64,000 nt of DNA from Phenylobacterium sp. (lineage in GTDB: Bacteria; Pseudomonadota; Alphaproteobacteria; Caulobacterales; Caulobacteraceae): the NCBI RefSeq assembly GCF_013911965.1, contig NZ_JACESE010000004.1, positions 62,001-126,000 of the forward strand, read 5' to 3'. A program made the position numbers and the translations under genes. The notes beneath the pieces were generated by a model. The model was given only the letters and a program-made list of their open reading frames with translations, ran no database searches and was not told where the DNA came from. Below are positions 10,544-53,037 of this stretch, piece by piece. Within the stretch, counting starts at the first letter, position 1, and each line of letters begins with the position of its first letter.

Positions 10544-13249
10544 ATGCGCGCAACGCCCCTCCCCCGCGCCGAGGCCGCCCCCGCCTGGCACGCCCTGCCC
10601 ACCACCGAGGCTCTCGATCGGCTCCAGAGCGAACCTGGGGGTCTGTCGGGCGCGGAGGCCGCCGGCCGGCTCGCGCGGTTCGGACCCAACACCTTGCCCG
10701 AACGCGGCGGGCAGGGCCTTCTCGGCGTCGTCCTCGGCCAGTTCCGCAGTCCGCTCATCTACGTGCTGCTGGCCGCCGCCGTGGTCTCCGCGGCGCTGGG
10801 CCACGGGCGCGACGCGGTGTTCATCGCGGTCATCCTGATCATCAACGCCGCCATCGGCGCCCTCCAGGAAAGCCGGGCCGAGCGCAGCGCCGCGGCGCTG
10901 AAGGCCAGCCTGAAGCTCATGGCGCTCGTCCTGCGGGACGGGGCGCGACGGACGGCGGAGGCCGACGACCTCGTGCCGGGCGACGTCGTCCTGCTGGAGT
11001 CCGGCATGGCCGCCCCGGCCGACCTTCGCCTGCTGTCCGCCCACCAGCTGCGGGTCGACGAATCCCTTCTGACGGGCGAGTCGGCCCTGGTGGAGAAGTC
11101 CGCCGACTGGCTGGGGACGGGCGACGAGACGGTGGGCGACCGTCGCAACATGGTCTTCGCCGGCTCCGCGGTGCTCGCGGGGCGCGGCGTCGGCGTGGTC
11201 TGCGCCACCGGCGAGGCGACGCAGATCGGCCAGGTGGCGGGGCTCCTGTCCGGACGGGACGCGCCGCCGCCCCTGCTCGTGCGGATGGAGGTCTTCTCGC
11301 GCCGGATCGCCCTGGCCATCCTGGCGCTCGTTCTGGCCCTCGGCCTCCTGCACCTGGCTCGCGGCGCCGAACTGGCCGAGGTCTTCCTGACCGCCACCGC
11401 GCTCGCCGTCTCGGCGATTCCGGAGGGACTGCCGGTGGCGATCACCGTGGCCCTCGCGGTCGCCTCGCTGCGCATGTCGCGGCGGAACGTCGTGGTGCGC
11501 CGCCTGCCGGCGGTGGAGGGGCTGGGCTCCTGCACCGTCATCGCCAGCGACAAGACGGGCACCCTGACCATCAACCGCCTGACCGTCACGCGGATCGTCA
11601 CTCCGGATGGGACGGGCTTCACGGTGGGCGGCGAAGGCCTCGGCCTGGAAGGGGCGATCGAGCCCATCGGCGAAGCGGCCGGGTCGGCGGCGGCCTGGGA
11701 CTCTCTGCGCCGCCTCGCCCAGGCGGCGGCGCGGGCCAACGAGGCGGTGATGAAGATCGACGACGGCGCCGTCGAGGCCTCCGGCGACCCTGTCGACGTG
11801 GCCTTCAAGGTCCTGGGGGCGAAGCTGCGCGGCGCCGCCTTCCCGCCCGGCGACACGGGAGAGCTGATCTCGCGCATTCCCTATGAACCGGAGCGGGGCT
11901 TCTGCGCGGCGGCGCACCGTTGCGGCGAGGGCGCGCGCCTGTCGGTCAAGGGTGCGCCGGAGCGGATCCTGGCCATGTGCCCGCCGGAAGCGCGCGCCGA
12001 GGCTCTGGCGGCGGCGGAGGCGCTCGCGGCCGAGGGCTACCGGGTCATCGCCGTCGCCGAACGGATGCTGGGCCGACCAGACGATCGGCTGGAGCCGGCT
12101 CTGGAAGGCCTCGAATTCCTGGGCCTGGCCGGGCTGATCGATCCTCTGCGCCCGGAAGCCTTCGAGGCCGTGGCGCTCTGCCGGTCGGCGGGCGTCGAGG
12201 TGCGCATGGTCACGGGCGATCATCCGGCCACGGCCAGCGCCATCGCGCGGCGGCTTGGCATGGCCGCGCCGGAAGAGGTGCTCACCGGCCGCGAACTCGC
12301 CGCTCTGACCGAGCCGGCGCTCTCGAAGCGGATCTCGGAAGCCCGCATCTTCGCGCGCGTCGAGCCGGCCCAGAAGACGCTGATCGTCCAGGCCCTGCAG
12401 GACGCCGGCCACTTCGTCGCCGTCACGGGCGATGGGGTGAACGACGCCCCGGCCTTGAAGACGGCGCATGTCGGGGTGGCCATGGGCGCTTCCGGATCGG
12501 ACGTGGCGCGGGGGGCGGCGGACCTGATCCTGGTGGACGACAACTTCGCCTCCATCGTCGCCGGCGTGGAGGAGGGCCGGGCGGCCTATGACAACATCCG
12601 CAAAATCATCTGGATGCTGATCAGCACGGCGATCGCCGAGGTGGCGCTCGTCGCCCTGGCCTTACTGTTCGATCTGCCGATCCCGCTGACCGCGGTCCAG
12701 ATCCTGTGGCTCAACCTGGTGACCAATGGCGTCCAGGACATCGCGCTCGCTTTCGAACGCCGCGAGCCCGACGCCATGGCGCGCCCGCCGCGGCCGCCGG
12801 GACAGCCGATCTTCGACCGCCGCATGATCGGCCAGTGCGCGACGAACGGCCTCTACGCCGGGGTGCTGGGCTTCGGCCTGTTCGCCGCCCTGCTCTTCCA
12901 GGGATGGACGGAGGCCGAGGCCCGCAACCTGACCCTGCTGTTCATGGTCTTCTTCGAGAACGTCCACGTCCTCAACTGCCGCTCGGAGACCCGCTCGCTG
13001 TTCCGCATCCCCCTGCGCGCCAACCCCTGGGTGCTGGCCGCGGTGGCGGCGGCCCAGGCGCTCCATGTCGCGGCCATGTACACGCCCGGCGTTCGCGGCG
13101 TCCTCGGCGTGGCGCCGGTCGCACCCGCAGAGTGGCTCATGGCCCTGAGCCTGGCCGCCTCGGTCGTCCTGGTGGCCGAGGCGCACAAGGCGGTCGCCCG
13201 CAGGATTGACCCCCATCAAGGCGCCGCCGTCCTCGCGAGGTCAGGCTGA
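10544..13249 (+). CDS. Cation-translocating P-type ATPase (P2 type)
   Basis: The 901-residue product contains an N-terminal cation ATPase domain, the actuator motif LLTGES, the phosphorylation site DKTGTLT (Asp336) preceded by the SAIPEGLPVA helix, and the hinge VTGDGVNDAPALKTAHVGVAMG. A hydrophobic C-terminal block of about six helices completes it. The PEGL sequence in helix M4 and the lack of CPx or N-terminal metal-binding domains place it with P2A/P2B-like Ca2+/Mn2+ or Na+/K+-type pumps rather than heavy-metal pumps; the ion is not determinable. TAGGAG precedes the ATG. It starts a low-oxygen block with a PhaC-like gene and stress genes. Confidence 0.92.
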   Translation: MRATPLPRAEAAPAWHALPTTEALDRLQSEPGGLSGAEAAGRLARFGPNTLPERGGQGLLGVVLGQFRSPLIYVLLAAAVVSAALGHGRDAVFIAVILIINAAIGALQESRAERSAAALKASLKLMALVLRDGARRTAEADDLVPGDVVLLESGMAAPADLRLLSAHQLRVDESLLTGESALVEKSADWLGTGDETVGDRRNMVFAGSAVLAGRGVGVVCATGEATQIGQVAGLLSGRDAPPPLLVRMEVFSRRIALAILALVLALGLLHLARGAELAEVFLTATALAVSAIPEGLPVAITVALAVASLRMSRRNVVVRRLPAVEGLGSCTVIASDKTGTLTINRLTVTRIVTPDGTGFTVGGEGLGLEGAIEPIGEAAGSAAAWDSLRRLAQAAARANEAVMKIDDGAVEASGDPVDVAFKVLGAKLRGAAFPPGDTGELISRIPYEPERGFCAAAHRCGEGARLSVKGAPERILAMCPPEARAEALAAAEALAAEGYRVIAVAERMLGRPDDRLEPALEGLEFLGLAGLIDPLRPEAFEAVALCRSAGVEVRMVTGDHPATASAIARRLGMAAPEEVLTGRELAALTEPALSKRISEARIFARVEPAQKTLIVQALQDAGHFVAVTGDGVNDAPALKTAHVGVAMGASGSDVARGAADLILVDDNFASIVAGVEEGRAAYDNIRKIIWMLISTAIAEVALVALALLFDLPIPLTAVQILWLNLVTNGVQDIALAFERREPDAMARPPRPPGQPIFDRRMIGQCATNGLYAGVLGFGLFAALLFQGWTEAEARNLTLLFMVFFENVHVLNCRSETRSLFRIPLRANPWVLAAVAAAQALHVAAMYTPGVRGVLGVAPVAPAEWLMALSLAASVVLVAEAHKAVARRIDPHQGAAVLARSG
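13206..13219 (+). promoter_or_regulatory. FNR/FixK-like box before the PhaC-like gene
   Basis: TTGACCCCCATCAA fits TTGA(T/C)-N4-(A/G)TCAA with good half-sites on both sides. It lies inside the last codons of the ATPase gene and is centred 57 bases before the ATG at 13270, so it could drive the PhaC-like gene independently. Confidence 0.5.
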
Positions 13250-45317: not shown

Positions 45318-46844
<1,527 letters not shown>

Positions 46845-47891: not shown

Positions 47892-49697
47892 CTAGTCGGC
47901 GTCCATCTTCAAGGCGGCGATGAAGGCTTCCTGCGGGATCTCGACCTTGCCGAACTGGCGCATGCGCTTCTTGCCCTCCTTCTGCTTGTCGAGGAGCTTG
48001 CGCTTGCGGCTGGCGTCGCCGCCATAGCACTTGGCCGTCACGTCCTTGCGCAGGGCGCGGATGGTCTCGCGGGCGATGATCCGGCCGCCGATGGCCGCCT
48101 GGATGGGGATCTGGAACATGTGCTGCGGGATGAGGTCCTTCATCCGCTCCACCATGGCCCGGCCGCGCATCTCAGCCCGCGTGCGGTGGACCAGCATGGA
48201 CAGTGCGTCCACCGGCTCGGAATTGACCAGGATCGACATCTTCACCAGGTCGCCGGTGCGGTACTCCTCGATCTGGTAGTCGAAGGAGGCGTAGCCCTTG
48301 GAGATCGATTTCAGGCGGTCGTAGAAGTCGAAGACCACCTCGTTCAGCGGCAGGTCGTAGACCACCATGGCCCGCTGGCCGACATAGGACAGCTCCCGCT
48401 GCTCGCCGCGGCGGTCCTGGCAGAGCTTGATGATCGAGCCCAGGTGTTCGTCCGGCGTCAGGATGGTGGCCTTGATCCACGGCTCGGCGATGGACTCGAT
48501 CCGCACCGGGTCGGGCAGGTCGGCCGGGTTGTGCAGCTCGATCTCCTCGCCGCTGGTCAGCGTGACGCGGTAGACGACGCTGGGGGCCGTGGCGATCAGG
48601 TCGAGGTCGAATTCGCGGCTCAGCCGCTCCTGGATGATCTCCAGGTGCAGCAACCCAAGGAAGCCGCAGCGGAAGCCGAAGCCGAGGGCGGCGCTGGTCT
48701 CCATCTCGAAGGAGAAGCTGGCGTCGTTCAGGCGCAGCTTGCCCATGGCCGCGCGCAAATCCTCGAAGTCGGCGGCGTCGACGGGGAAGAGGCCGCAGAA
48801 GACCACCGGCTGGGCCTCGCGGAAGCCCGACAAGGCCTGGGCCGTCGGGCGCTTCTCCTCGGTGATGGTGTCGCCGACGGCGGCGTCGGCCACCTCCTTG
48901 ATCGAGGCGGTGATGAAGCCGATCTCGCCGGGGCCGAGCTCGTCCACCTCGGTCTGCTTGGGCCGAAAGACGCCGATGCGGTCGATGCCGTAGGTGGCGC
49001 CGGTCTGCATCATCTTGACCTTCTGGCCGGCCTTCATGACGCCGTCGATGACGCGCACCAGCACGATCACGCCCAGATAGGCGTCGTACCAGGCGTCGAC
49101 GAGCAGGGCCTTCAGCGGCGCGTCCGGGTCGCCCTTGGGCGCCGGCAGGCGGGTGACGATGGCCTCCAGGAGGTCGCCGATCCCCTCGCCCGTCTTGGCC
49201 GAACAGAGGATGGCGTCGGAGGCGTCGAGCCCGATCACGTCCTCGATCTGCTGGCGCACCCGCTCGGGCTCGGCGGCCGGCAGGTCGATCTTGTTGAGGA
49301 CCGGCACGATCTCGTGGTCGTTGTCGATGGCCTGATAGACGTTGGCGAGCGTCTGCGCCTCCACGCCCTGGCTGGAGTCCACCACCAGAATGGAGCCTTC
49401 GCAGGCCGCCAGCGAACGGCTGACCTCATAGGCGAAGTCCACGTGGCCGGGCGTGTCCATCAGGTTCAGGACATAGGTCTCGCCGTCCTTGGCCTTGTAG
49501 TGCAGGCGCACGGTCTGGGCCTTGATGGTGATGCCCCGCTCCCGCTCGATCTCCATGGAGTCGAGCACCTGCTCCTTCATTTCGCGCTGGGTCAGCGCGC
49601 CCGTCTCCTGGATGAGCCGGTCGGACAGGGTCGATTTCCCGTGGTCGATGTGGGCCACGATGGAGAAGTTGCGGATGCGCGAGAGCGGGGTCGTCAT
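47892..49697 (-). CDS. lepA: Elongation factor 4
   Basis: The 601-residue product is a translational GTPase with G1 [15 protein letters not shown]3 DTPGH, G4 NKIDLP, domains II-III and EF-G-like domain V, and the LepA-specific C-terminal domain ([20 protein letters not shown]). LepA back-translocates or remodels stalled ribosomes. Length and order are standard. The ATG at 49697 is clear, and the GST gene follows on the same strand upstream. Confidence 0.98.
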
Positions 49698-49746: not shown

Positions 49747-50388
49747 TCAGCCGCCGACGCGCTGGGGGCGGACGCTGACCTTCTCCAGGACGTGTTCGCG
49801 AAAGGCGGGCCGCTCGCAGAGGCGCGCGTACCAGTCGGCGAGCGCGGGCAGCCGCGGCGGCTCGAGTTCCGGCGGGACGCGGAACCAGCGGTGGACGGCG
49901 ACGCCGAGGGCGAGGTCGGCGACGCTCAGCTGTCGACCCATGACGAAGGCGCGGCCGGCCAGCCGTATCTCGAGGACCTGGAGCACGTCCACGGCGGCGG
50001 CGACCGAACGGCCCATCTCGGCCGGGTCGGGGCTTGAACGGCGATAGGCGGTGCGCACGGCGCCTACGGCGCGGGCCGGGGCGGCGGACCAGTCCATCCA
50101 GGCCTCGGCCTGCCAGCGCGCCTGCGGGTCCTCCGGCCAGAGTCCGGCCTGCGGATGGCGGCTCGCCAGCCAGCGGATGATCGCCGCCGATTCCCACAGG
50201 CTGAAGCCCGTGCTCGTCGTGATCGCCGGGATGCGCCCCGGCGGACTGACGGCCCGGAACGCCGGATCGTCATTGCCGCCGAAGTCGCCGCCCCAGTCGC
50301 GCCGCTCGACGCTCACTCCGGCCTCGCCCGCCGCCCACATCACCCGCGCCGTCGCCGAGGAGTCGCTCCGCCCCCACACCGTGATCAT
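49747..50388 (-). CDS. Glutathione S-transferase family protein
   Basis: The 213-residue product has an N-terminal thioredoxin-like GST domain ([20 protein letters not shown] start, cis-Pro region [20 protein letters not shown]) and a helical C-terminal domain with the N-capping-box-like [10 protein letters not shown]. The S of SDSSA may act as the glutathione-activating residue. GGAGCAGGA precedes the ATG. The long upstream frame is not real. Confidence 0.87.
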
Positions 50389-50572
50389 GGTCCTGCTCCG
50401 GCAGCCTCGGCGCACACCTAGCCGCCGGAGACGACGGGGCGTCGTCACGGCGCCGCGGACCGCCCTCGACAACCTCGCCGATTGGCGCCGCCCCACAGAC
50501 GAACGGGCTGGACGGTGACCGAAAAGCAGCCGAGTCTTTCCGTGCGGAACACGGGTTTCTGGGGCGCGGTCG

Positions 50573-51664
50573 ATGGACGGACTTCGGGAGCGGCTCGGCT
50601 ACTTCTTCGATTCCAACACCCTCAATCCGCACGGCATCTGCCTGATGTGGCGTCCGGAGCTGATCTGGACGCACGCCATCTCCGACGTGCTGATCGGCCT
50701 GGCCTACTTCTCCATCCCGCTCGCCCTCGGCGTCTTCCTCTGGCACCGCCGCGACGTGAAGTTCAGCTGGGCGATCTGGATGTTCGTCGGCTTCATCATG
50801 CTCTGCGGCGTGACCCACTTCATGATGGTCTGGACGCTGTGGAACGCCGACTATGGCGTCGAGGCCCTGATCAAGGCCGCGACTGCCGCCGTCTCGGTCA
50901 TCACCGCCTTCGCCCTCTGGCCCCTGCTGCCGCGGGTCATCGCCCTGCCCTCCCCGGCCGAGCTCGAGCGCCGCATCGCCGAGCGCGACGCCGCCCTCGT
51001 CGAACTGCGGGCGGCCATGGACACGATGGTCGAGATGCGCGAGCACGAGGCGCGGCAGAAACTGCTGCTCGACGAGCTGAACCACCGCGTGAAGAACACG
51101 CTCGCCTCGGTGCAGTCGATCGCCGTCCAGACCCTGAGCGGCGAGCAGGATCCGGAGGCGGCCCGATCGACCTTCATCGATCGCCTGATGGCGCTGTCCT
51201 CCACCCACAATCTGCTGGTCAAGCGCAGCTGGGAGGGCGCGGCCTTCGAGGACCTGGTCAACGCCAGCCTCAGCCACTACGGCCAGCCCTACCGCTTCTC
51301 GGGCGAGCCGCTCGCCATGTCGCCGAACACCGCCGTCACACTGGGCATGGCGCTGCACGAGCTGGCGACCAACGCCCTGAAGCACGGCGCCTGGGCCAAG
51401 GGCGGCCGGGTGGAGATCGAGGCGGAGGTCGATGAGGTTGCAGGGGCGACCGTCATCACCTGGCGCGAACGCGAGGGGGGAGCGGTGGCGGCGCCGGAGC
51501 GCCGAGGCTTCGGCTCGCGGCTGCTGGAACGCGGCGTGGCGGGTGAGCTGGGCGGTTCGGTGAGCCTGGACTTCGACGCCCTGGGGCTGTGCTGCGTCAT
51601 CCGCACGCCGATCGGTCCCAACCTCCGGCCGGCGCGCCACGACGATCTCGCAAAGAGCGCCTGA
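50573..51664 (+). CDS. HWE histidine kinase with ETR1-like ethylene-binding membrane domain
   Basis: The 363-residue product has three N-terminal membrane helices (about 33-53, 65-85, 97-118). Residues Asp38, Tyr45, Ile48, Pro49, Cys78 and His82 match plant ETR1 Asp25, Tyr32, Ile35, Pro36, Cys65 and His69, the Cu(I)/ethylene site, with identical spacing throughout. After a coiled coil (125-165) is an HWE-type kinase: phosphoacceptor His171 in LLDELNHRVKNTL, the WE motif in RSWEGA, and N box HELATNALKHG. It has no receiver. HWE kinases often signal to general stress or light responses. Ligand binding is inferred from residues, not shown. Confidence 0.88.
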   Translation: MDGLRERLGYFFDSNTLNPHGICLMWRPELIWTHAISDVLIGLAYFSIPLALGVFLWHRRDVKFSWAIWMFVGFIMLCGVTHFMMVWTLWNADYGVEALIKAATAAVSVITAFALWPLLPRVIALPSPAELERRIAERDAALVELRAAMDTMVEMREHEARQKLLLDELNHRVKNTLASVQSIAVQTLSGEQDPEAARSTFIDRLMALSSTHNLLVKRSWEGAAFEDLVNASLSHYGQPYRFSGEPLAMSPNTAVTLGMALHELATNALKHGAWAKGGRVEIEAEVDEVAGATVITWREREGGAVAAPERRGFGSRLLERGVAGELGGSVSLDFDALGLCCVIRTPIGPNLRPARHDDLAKSA

Positions 51665-51783: not shown

Positions 51784-53037
51784 ATGATCAAATCGCTCAG
51801 CCTCTTCGTCCTCGGCGCCCTCGTGGCCGGCCTCGTCACCGGTTCGGCCCTGTTCGCCTATGGCGGACCCGCCGCCCTCCGTGCGGCCGAGGTGGTGGAG
51901 GCGCTGGGCGCGCTGTGGCTGAACGCCCTGCGCATGACCATCGTCCCGCTGGTCTTCTCGCTGCTGGTCACGGGGGTCGCCTCGGCCGCCGACGCCGCGG
52001 CCACGGGCCGCCTGGCGGCGCGGGCCTTCGCGCTCTTTGCGATCATGCTGGTCATCGGCGCGCTCTTCGGTCTCTTCGCCATGAGCGGCCTGATCGCCCT
52101 CTGGCCGGTGGACCCGCAAGGCGCGGCGGCCATGACGGCGGCGGTGGAGGGTCAGTCCACCGTCCAGGTTCCGCCGGGCTTCGCCGCCTGGCTGCCGACG
52201 CTCGCCCCCTCCAACCCGATCCGGGCGGCGGCCGAGGACGCCATCCTGCAGATCGTCGTCTTCGGCCTCATCTTCGGCTTTGCGCTGACCCGCCTGCCCC
52301 AGGCGCAGAGGGGGCTGCTGACCCAGGTCTTCCGCGCGCTCGCCGAAACCATGATCGTCATCGTCCGCTGGGTGCTGCTGGCGGCGCCGGTTGGCGTCTT
52401 CGCCCTGGCGCTCGGCATCGGCCTGCGGGCCGGGCTCGGCGCGGCCGGCGTGCTCGCCCAGTATGTGGTCATGGTGACCGGCGTCACCGCCGCCATCGCC
52501 CTGCTGCCCTACGGCCTCATCCTGCTCACCCGCCGCAGCCGGTTCGCCGATTTCATCCGCGCCACCGCGCCGGTCCAGGCGCTGGCCTTCTCCACCCAGA
52601 GCTCGCTGGCCTGCCTGCCGGTCATGCTGGAGAAGGCGCAGGACGATCTGCGCGTGCCGCCGCGGGTGGCCGGCGTGGTCCTGCCCCTGGCGGTCGCCAT
52701 CTTCCGCCTGAGCAGTCCGGTGGCGAACCTCGCCGTCGCCGTCTTCGTGGCCCACCTCTACGGCCTGTCGCCCAGCTTCGCCCAGTTCGCCGCCGCCGTC
52801 GCCGTGGCCTTCGTCATCTCCATCGGAACCGTCGGCCTGCCGGGCCAGGCCTCGTTCTTCGCCAGCATCGCCCCCATCTGCGTCGCCCTCGGCGTGCCGG
52901 TGGAGATCCTCGCCGTCCTGCTCGCCGTCGAAGTCATCCCCGACATCTTCCGCACCGTCGGCAATGTGACGGCCGACATGGCGGTCACCGTCGTTCTGGA
53001 GGACGAGGCGCCCGAGCCGGCGACGGCCCTCGGCTGA
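51784..53037 (+). CDS. DAACS family dicarboxylate/amino acid:cation symporter
   Basis: The 417-residue product has about eight helices plus two re-entrant loops. Family motifs include FSTQSSLACLPVML (HP1 serine-rich tip), the helix-7 region FRLSSPVANLAVAVFVAHLYG in place of the usual NMDGT, GTVGLPGQASFF in HP2, and EVIPDIFRTVGNVTADMAVT in helix 8. It imports C4-dicarboxylates or amino acids with sodium or protons. The NMDGT motif seems replaced, so cation coupling may differ. It is probably transcribed separately from the kinase gene. Confidence 0.88.
   Translation: MIKSLSLFVLGALVAGLVTGSALFAYGGPAALRAAEVVEALGALWLNALRMTIVPLVFSLLVTGVASAADAAATGRLAARAFALFAIMLVIGALFGLFAMSGLIALWPVDPQGAAAMTAAVEGQSTVQVPPGFAAWLPTLAPSNPIRAAAEDAILQIVVFGLIFGFALTRLPQAQRGLLTQVFRALAETMIVIVRWVLLAAPVGVFALALGIGLRAGLGAAGVLAQYVVMVTGVTAAIALLPYGLILLTRRSRFADFIRATAPVQALAFSTQSSLACLPVMLEKAQDDLRVPPRVAGVVLPLAVAIFRLSSPVANLAVAVFVAHLYGLSPSFAQFAAAVAVAFVISIGTVGLPGQASFFASIAPICVALGVPVEILAVLLAVEVIPDIFRTVGNVTADMAVTVVLEDEAPEPATALG

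Follow-up and report, generated by a model that had tools for sequence, protein, structure and literature searches.

A stretch of 64,000 nucleotides from a Phenylobacterium sp. genome, referred to below as the window, encodes a 363-aa sensor histidine kinase in which an ethylene receptor-like membrane sensor (ETR1_N) is joined directly to a kinase core of the HWE type. The sequence makes it likely that this protein is a membrane ETR1-type Cu(I)/ethylene receptor whose HWE kinase delivers its output into a promiscuous HWE/stress phosphorelay, and sensing of ethylene gas is the probable role of the gene in the cell. Each sequence feature tested for ETR1_N receptors was found in the sensor, and likewise each feature tested for HWE kinases in the kinase. 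The direct fusion of ETR1_N to HWE forms one supported clade around Phenylobacterium.

The open reading frame occupies positions 50573..51664 of the forward strand, and its ATG start is shared by relatives whose frames open in the same alignment column. The product comprises the ETR1_N domain, a linker helix and the HWE core. The three-helix ETR1_N domain (residues 29-125; 50657..50947, +) matches Pfam PF25487 with an E value of 3.7e-36 and, at 123.7 bits vs a curated cut-off of 27, more than chance accounts for the match. The kinase core (residues 163-350; 51059..51622, +) matches PF07536 (E 2.1e-25), the HWE_HK match at residues 168-239 reaching 89.7 bits vs a cut-off of 22.8, with a weaker HisKA_2 match in the same region. 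The first-pass annotation had proposed an ETR1-type site and an HWE kinase in a single protein, and both profiles, scoring far above their cut-offs, bear this out. The linker between them (residues 126-162; 50948..51058, +) has no PAS or GAF match in Pfam; no GAF appears between sensor and kinase at E values up to 0.01, so the architecture of plant-type receptors is not reproduced. Hydrophobic segments are centred at residues 39-49, 70-81 and 104-118, and lysine and arginine number three in the loop 56-66 and none in the loop 90-95, a pattern that fits three predicted helices with the kinase on the inside.

The kinase contains the H-box histidine H171, E263 in place of the first N-box asparagine, N267 and W297-x-E299, the W-x-E motif being what we take to be a hallmark of HWE kinases. 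The feature list of this kinase family is given in the accessible part of PMC12148442. Two PDB entries of the Brucella-type LOV kinase, 5epv and 6ph4, match residues 148-355 (124 bits) and 150-355, respectively, and a PDB sequence search with the bacterial sensor profile returned no solved structure matching the sensor.

All seven ethylene-binding positions are present in the sensor: D38, Y45, I48, P49, I75, C78 and H82 are the counterparts, in the same order, of ETR1 D25, Y32, I35, P36, I62, C65 and H69, and the helix-3 signalling positions K91, T94, S98 and P110 of ETR1 correspond to K101, T104, S108 and P120. The residue matching uses Y32 and ETR1 sequence letters that we presume to be correct. 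The numbering of D25, C65 and H69 follows PMC12643061, that of I35, P36, I62, T94, S98 and P110 follows PMC6586836 and that of K91 follows PMC11819568, as printed in the accessible parts of these papers. The first-pass annotation had described a full ETR1 site with identical spacing. The six residues that it listed (D38, Y45, I48, P49, C78 and H82) were found where it had placed them, and its offset of 13 holds in helices 1-2 but falls to 10 in helix 3; its list also lacked I75, the seventh essential residue. The offset of 10 goes with a shorter loop between helices 2 and 3, as in AzoEtr1 of Azospirillum brasilense.

AzoEtr1 provides the closest functional reference. At 525 aa, the product of the A. 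brasilense locus (L136) has the published length of AzoEtr1, and it carries at the printed numbers the residues D35, C75, H79 and K98 named in the available text of PMC11819568; these align with D38, C78, H82 and K101 of the window protein. One offset of 3 relates the two proteins at 13/13 positions from H20 to P120, gap-free, and identity to the window sensor is 55% over the 110-aa query. According to the same text, direct ethylene binding of AzoEtr1 was shown, its residues 1-130 bind ethylene saturably, and neither its D35A nor its C75A form restored biofilm formation.

The residues of the site would serve any Cu(I)-bound ligand equally well, and the copper site could thus be real with a natural ligand other than ethylene, the kinase reporting Cu(I) supply or a different small molecule that binds Cu, e.g., CO or an alkene. 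Weak CopD similarity at residues 63-117 (E 0.0025; 18.6 bits, below the cut-off of 32.1) and the lack of an ethylene-related gene among the annotated neighbors lean in that direction. We nevertheless regard this reading as unlikely, since all seven ETR1 ethylene residues, beyond the metal ligands, are kept in 13/13 direct fusions and the proven receptor AzoEtr1 has the same residues at constant spacing. Copper-transporting ATPases were considered as supporting evidence and set aside: the source genome has five Cu-ATPase matches over the cut-off, and such ATPases discriminate nothing because they are present in all 14 of the 14 control genomes. The window itself contains, at about 10826-12655 (+), a P-type ATPase-like frame (930 aa) with a partial Cu-ATPase model match below the cut-off.

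Directly ahead of helix 1 lies a PHGxC motif (residues 19-23; 50627..50641, +), of which H20 and C23 are both kept in 158 of the 159 ETR1_N rows with intact D38/C78/H82. To our knowledge, plant ETR1 does not have the PHGxC of the bacterial proteins. We found no mention of the motif in the accessible portion of the literature on these receptors. Among 10 degenerate rows, a count that omits L059, L062 and L175 (which do not have the exact D/C/H), H20 is kept in two and C23 in four. A specific tie between loss of PHGxC and loss of the copper site was rejected because other conserved positions disappear about as often, P49 being lost in nine of the same 10 rows, T111 in all 10 and I75 in nine. ETR1_N-like domains with the copper site partly or wholly missing were seen in L009, L060, L063, L064 and L180 to L183, and in L063 and L064 such a domain is carried by an HWE kinase. 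The ETR1_N scaffold seems to be used without metal in some proteins.

The source genome encodes one ETR1_N. Including it, the near genomes have any ETR1_N in 9/60 cases. Among them, 7 of the 35 other members of the genus show a match, comprising direct HWE fusions in G001, G005, G009 and G018, other kinases in G017 and G027 and a degenerate sensor in G031. In broader samples, with the source counted and a few matches lying below the cut-off, ETR1_N was found in 33/299 genomes of the order, 28/385 of the class and 29/398 of the phylum. A scan of named genomes gave at least 569 confirmed loci, the best 80 of which were analyzed; Phenylobacterium ranked first in these 80, followed by other Alphaproteobacteria, and the 80 included one Saccharospirillum. 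Phenylobacterium thus supplies the best named relatives, in agreement with the Caulobacterales-like host suggested at first pass. The accompanying view of ETR1-like domains as cyanobacterial proved too narrow, given at least 569 confirmed loci, 28 of 385 sampled genomes in the class and a proven receptor in A. brasilense. The ETR1_N sensor is common in Alphaproteobacteria, and a wide range of outputs is described for proteobacterial ethylene receptors in the accessible part of a review (PMC7700396). Frames of about 127-140 aa with an intact site and no kinase also occur (L027, L028, L029, L030, L032, L033 and L035 in Caulobacterales, and L043 and L047). In both cases inspected, L027 and L035, such a frame is overlapped or abutted by a following same-strand gene for a HisKA kinase, an arrangement that might represent a split ethylene receptor.

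Outputs were classed by scores against profiles that came from the set's own rows, and the classes were checked with Pfam for L031, L037, L063, L064, L023, L003, L072 and L074. The 146 rows comprised 21 HWE kinases, 11 HisKA_2 kinases, 100 other histidine kinases and 14 sensors without a kinase in frame. The phylum sample added two HWE rows (L177 and L178) among 26 further rows, L184 being left out for want of a sensor match, which brings the fusion survey to 23/172 rows with HWE output, two of them duplicates. By draw, HWE was found at 5/9 loci of the near genomes, 6/30 of the order and 3/30 of the class; two of the three class rows (L063 and L064) have a degenerate site. HWE also occurs in 9 of the best 80 of at least 569 named-genome loci, a figure biased by the ranking of those 80 on similarity to the window. 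The pairing with an HWE kinase, called unusual at first pass, is indeed a minority output but not unique, as its presence in 23 of 172 classified rows demonstrates, even with two or more duplicate loci in that count. Pfam placed one PAS_3 in L023, PAS_4 in L031, two PAS stretches in L063 and no PAS in L037 or L064.

In the sensor-domain tree of 142 rows, built from few columns, with the bootstrap not settled and L177 and L178 left out, the direct fusions form one clade of 11 rows (support 100/99), and the HWE label needs five changes, at least three of them forced by supported branches. The direct-fusion clade is again single in the kinase-core tree (support 98/98). HWE output is therefore of more than one origin among ETR1_N proteins.

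The gene neighborhood contributed the physical context of the kinase. Upstream of it are LepA (47892-49697, -) and a divergent GST-family protein (49747..50496, -; Pfam) belonging to the same synteny group; 119 bp downstream begins an SDF-family symporter (51784..53037, +; PF00375), a conserved neighbor that is followed on the forward strand by DUF1295 and penicillin amidase in the window annotation. The kinase adjoins the symporter in the source genome, G018, G1060, G005 and G161 (5/30 symporter loci), and also in L067. In a second synteny group (L070, L072, L074 and L076, annotated by Pfam for L072) it stands between a sulfatase and CysS, whereas in L071 and L078 annotation identified a DUF1254/DUF1214 protein and S-adenosylmethionine synthetase as neighbors. 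The symporter was considered as a functional partner and is kept as a neighbor only, because the adjacency is missing in the sulfatase/CysS group, L071 and L078. In G072 (L225), the LepA, GST, SDF and DUF1295-like genes keep this order, GST and SDF have no kinase between them, and the genome lacks ETR1_N altogether; comparison with this locus suggests that the kinase was gained or lost as a single gene at the LepA-GST-SDF locus. A PAS-HisKA-HATPase-receiver hybrid kinase (45318-46844, -; Pfam) lies 3.7 kb from the HWE kinase in the window and was not seen in related loci. In G001 (L226), a gene encoding two MHYT repeats, PAS, HisKA, HATPase and a receiver lies between the L003 kinase and the SDF symporter.

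Conservation was assessed in alignment A2, 13 direct-fusion proteins from distinct genomes; L074 and L068 are duplicates of L002 and L018, with the same sensor sequence and agreeing contig coordinates. The seven binding residues, K101, T104, S108, P120, H20 and C23 are kept in 13/13, as are the HWE hallmarks E263, N267 and W297-x-E299, and H171 is kept in 12/13, the exception being L003 (genome G001), which has a tyrosine. Pairwise identity averages 0.81 for the sensor and 0.65 for the kinase. By a simple Nei-Gojobori count, dN/dS of the sensor was below that of the kinase in 8/8 pairs. For the window protein the sensor and kinase values were 0.051 vs 0.371 with L004, 0.072 vs 0.296 with L003, 0.060 vs 0.247 with L069 and 0.341 vs 0.668 with the distant L002; four other pairs gave 0.058 vs 0.237, 0.216 vs 0.424, 0.090 vs 0.239 and 0.170 vs 0.411. 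Linker values were 0.036, 0.049 and 0.036 against L004, L003 and L069. Such conservation with low dN/dS is what a working sensor should display.

Observations that count against the favored explanation include the patchy presence of the gene (9/60), the empty locus in G072, the His-to-Tyr change in G001 and the sensor dN/dS of 0.341 in the L002 comparison. The first three of these would also suit a relic, in which the sensor scaffold persists in a protein that no longer signals in the genus. Low dN/dS in both sensor and linker, together with kinase motifs that are intact (the histidine in 12/13, E263, N267, W297 and E299 in 13/13), renders a relic very improbable.

For a functional receptor, the conserved site suggests the following sequence of events. 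Each subunit of a dimer would coordinate Cu(I) with C78 and H82, D38 setting up the site, and the copper would bind ethylene. Binding would move helix 3, which carries K101, T104, S108 and P120, and the change would travel to the kinase through a continuous linker of some 45 residues that is free of GAF and PAS. Autophosphorylation of H171 would be altered, in either direction. In the last and weakest step, the phosphoryl group would go to shared receivers, most likely an MrrA-like single-domain regulator, and on to the PhyR-NepR-sigma factor stress response, so that ethylene might tune stress tolerance and perhaps attachment.

Shared receivers are proposed because no partner regulator is found beside the kinase: no stand-alone response regulator was seen among the annotated flanking ORFs, and no adjacent regulator is conserved in either synteny group examined. 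For the same reason, and unlike in AzoEtr1, support for the last step comes from genome content and from a different species. One cluster of the source genome encodes PhyR, NepR, an ECF sigma factor and a Cache-HisKA_2 kinase; from their position, we take the sigma factor to be EcfG and the kinase to be PhyK. The accessible part of PMC12148442 assigns HWE/HisKA2 kinases a role in regulating the general stress response. In Caulobacter, 11 further HWE/HisKA2 kinases were tested, of which five showed autophosphorylation; MrrA was phosphorylated by four of the five, and the PFxFATG motif is given for MrrA and SdrG (PMC5964349, accessible part). A pattern search found PFxFATG twice in the source genome, in L228 and L227. 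The former is a 132-aa stand-alone MrrA-like receiver (Pfam Response_reg, E 5.1e-9). L227 is an HWE hybrid kinase whose C-terminal receiver carries PFxFATG, located on C30 near 52.3-53.2 kb, about 7 kb from PhyR.

The ethylene receptor might instead have a private output, with its own unlinked response regulator and outside the general stress pathway. The source genome has 10 HWE-profile matches and hence a large kinase/receiver pool from which such a partner could come, and AzoEtr1 uses a dedicated regulator (available text of PMC11819568). We consider this possible but on the improbable side, as promiscuous receivers are common to HWE/HisKA2 kinases in Caulobacter and Sphingomonas (PMC5964349, in the part available) and no regulator is conserved beside the gene in either synteny group. 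A more specific combined proposal goes beyond the shared phosphorelay that we favor, and we put it forward as rather doubtful: ethylene would gate stress tolerance and attachment through MrrA/PhyR in the Caulobacteraceae HWE phosphorelay, and PHGxC (H20 and C23) would be a second functional element of bacterial receptors, e.g., a copper-entry site or an inter-subunit disulfide replacing the plant N-terminal cysteines.

Bacterial ethylene receptors with varied outputs are already in print (PMC11819568 and PMC7700396, accessible parts), and direct ETR1_N-HWE wiring is a little-studied variant. In the open-licence literature we found no publication that treats an ETR1-type sensor on an HWE kinase, or ethylene in relation to the general stress response, and the term HWE has 0 occurrences in PMC11819568 and PMC7700396. 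Very few bacterial proteins have so far been demonstrated to bind ethylene, and none of them has this type of output. An orphan ETR1_N-HWE kinase with neither GAF nor PAS would be a minimal ethylene switch, of one sensor, one linker and one kinase, and would open to direct experiment a path by which ethylene could reach the alphaproteobacterial stress network. As a small natural protein, it also suits the study of kinase control by copper-bound ethylene. The same question applies to plant ETR1, for whose sensor domain the PDB search with the bacterial profile likewise yielded no match, and G072, with the same locus and no kinase, provides a natural negative.

The window protein combines elements of several known systems. 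With AzoEtr1 it shares ETR1_N and the same residues, shifted throughout by 3; AzoEtr1, however, has a PAS and a kinase of the HisKA type (its H-box in L136 reads HEMSQPLN), whereas the window protein has an HWE kinase and no PAS, and the overlapping response regulator gene described there (PMC11819568, available text) has no counterpart seen adjacent here. Plant ETR1 and cyanobacterial SynEtr1 resemble it in the seven binding residues, the helix-3 residues and the three membrane helices. In plant ETR1 a GAF domain precedes a different kinase core, often with a receiver (PMC6586836, accessible part), while the window sensor joins its kinase directly. Other proteins likewise pair ETR1_N with HWE (L023, L026, L031, L177, L037 and L178), but they lie elsewhere in the sensor tree and have a PAS inserted or a divergent H-box; L023, L026, L031 and L177 are also longer, with PAS in both of those scanned. 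Soluble LOV-HWE/HisKA2 kinases, such as the Brucella LOV kinase (5epv, 6ph4), share the kinase core, to which the Brucella protein couples a soluble light-sensing LOV domain and the window protein, in contrast, a predicted membrane copper/ethylene domain.
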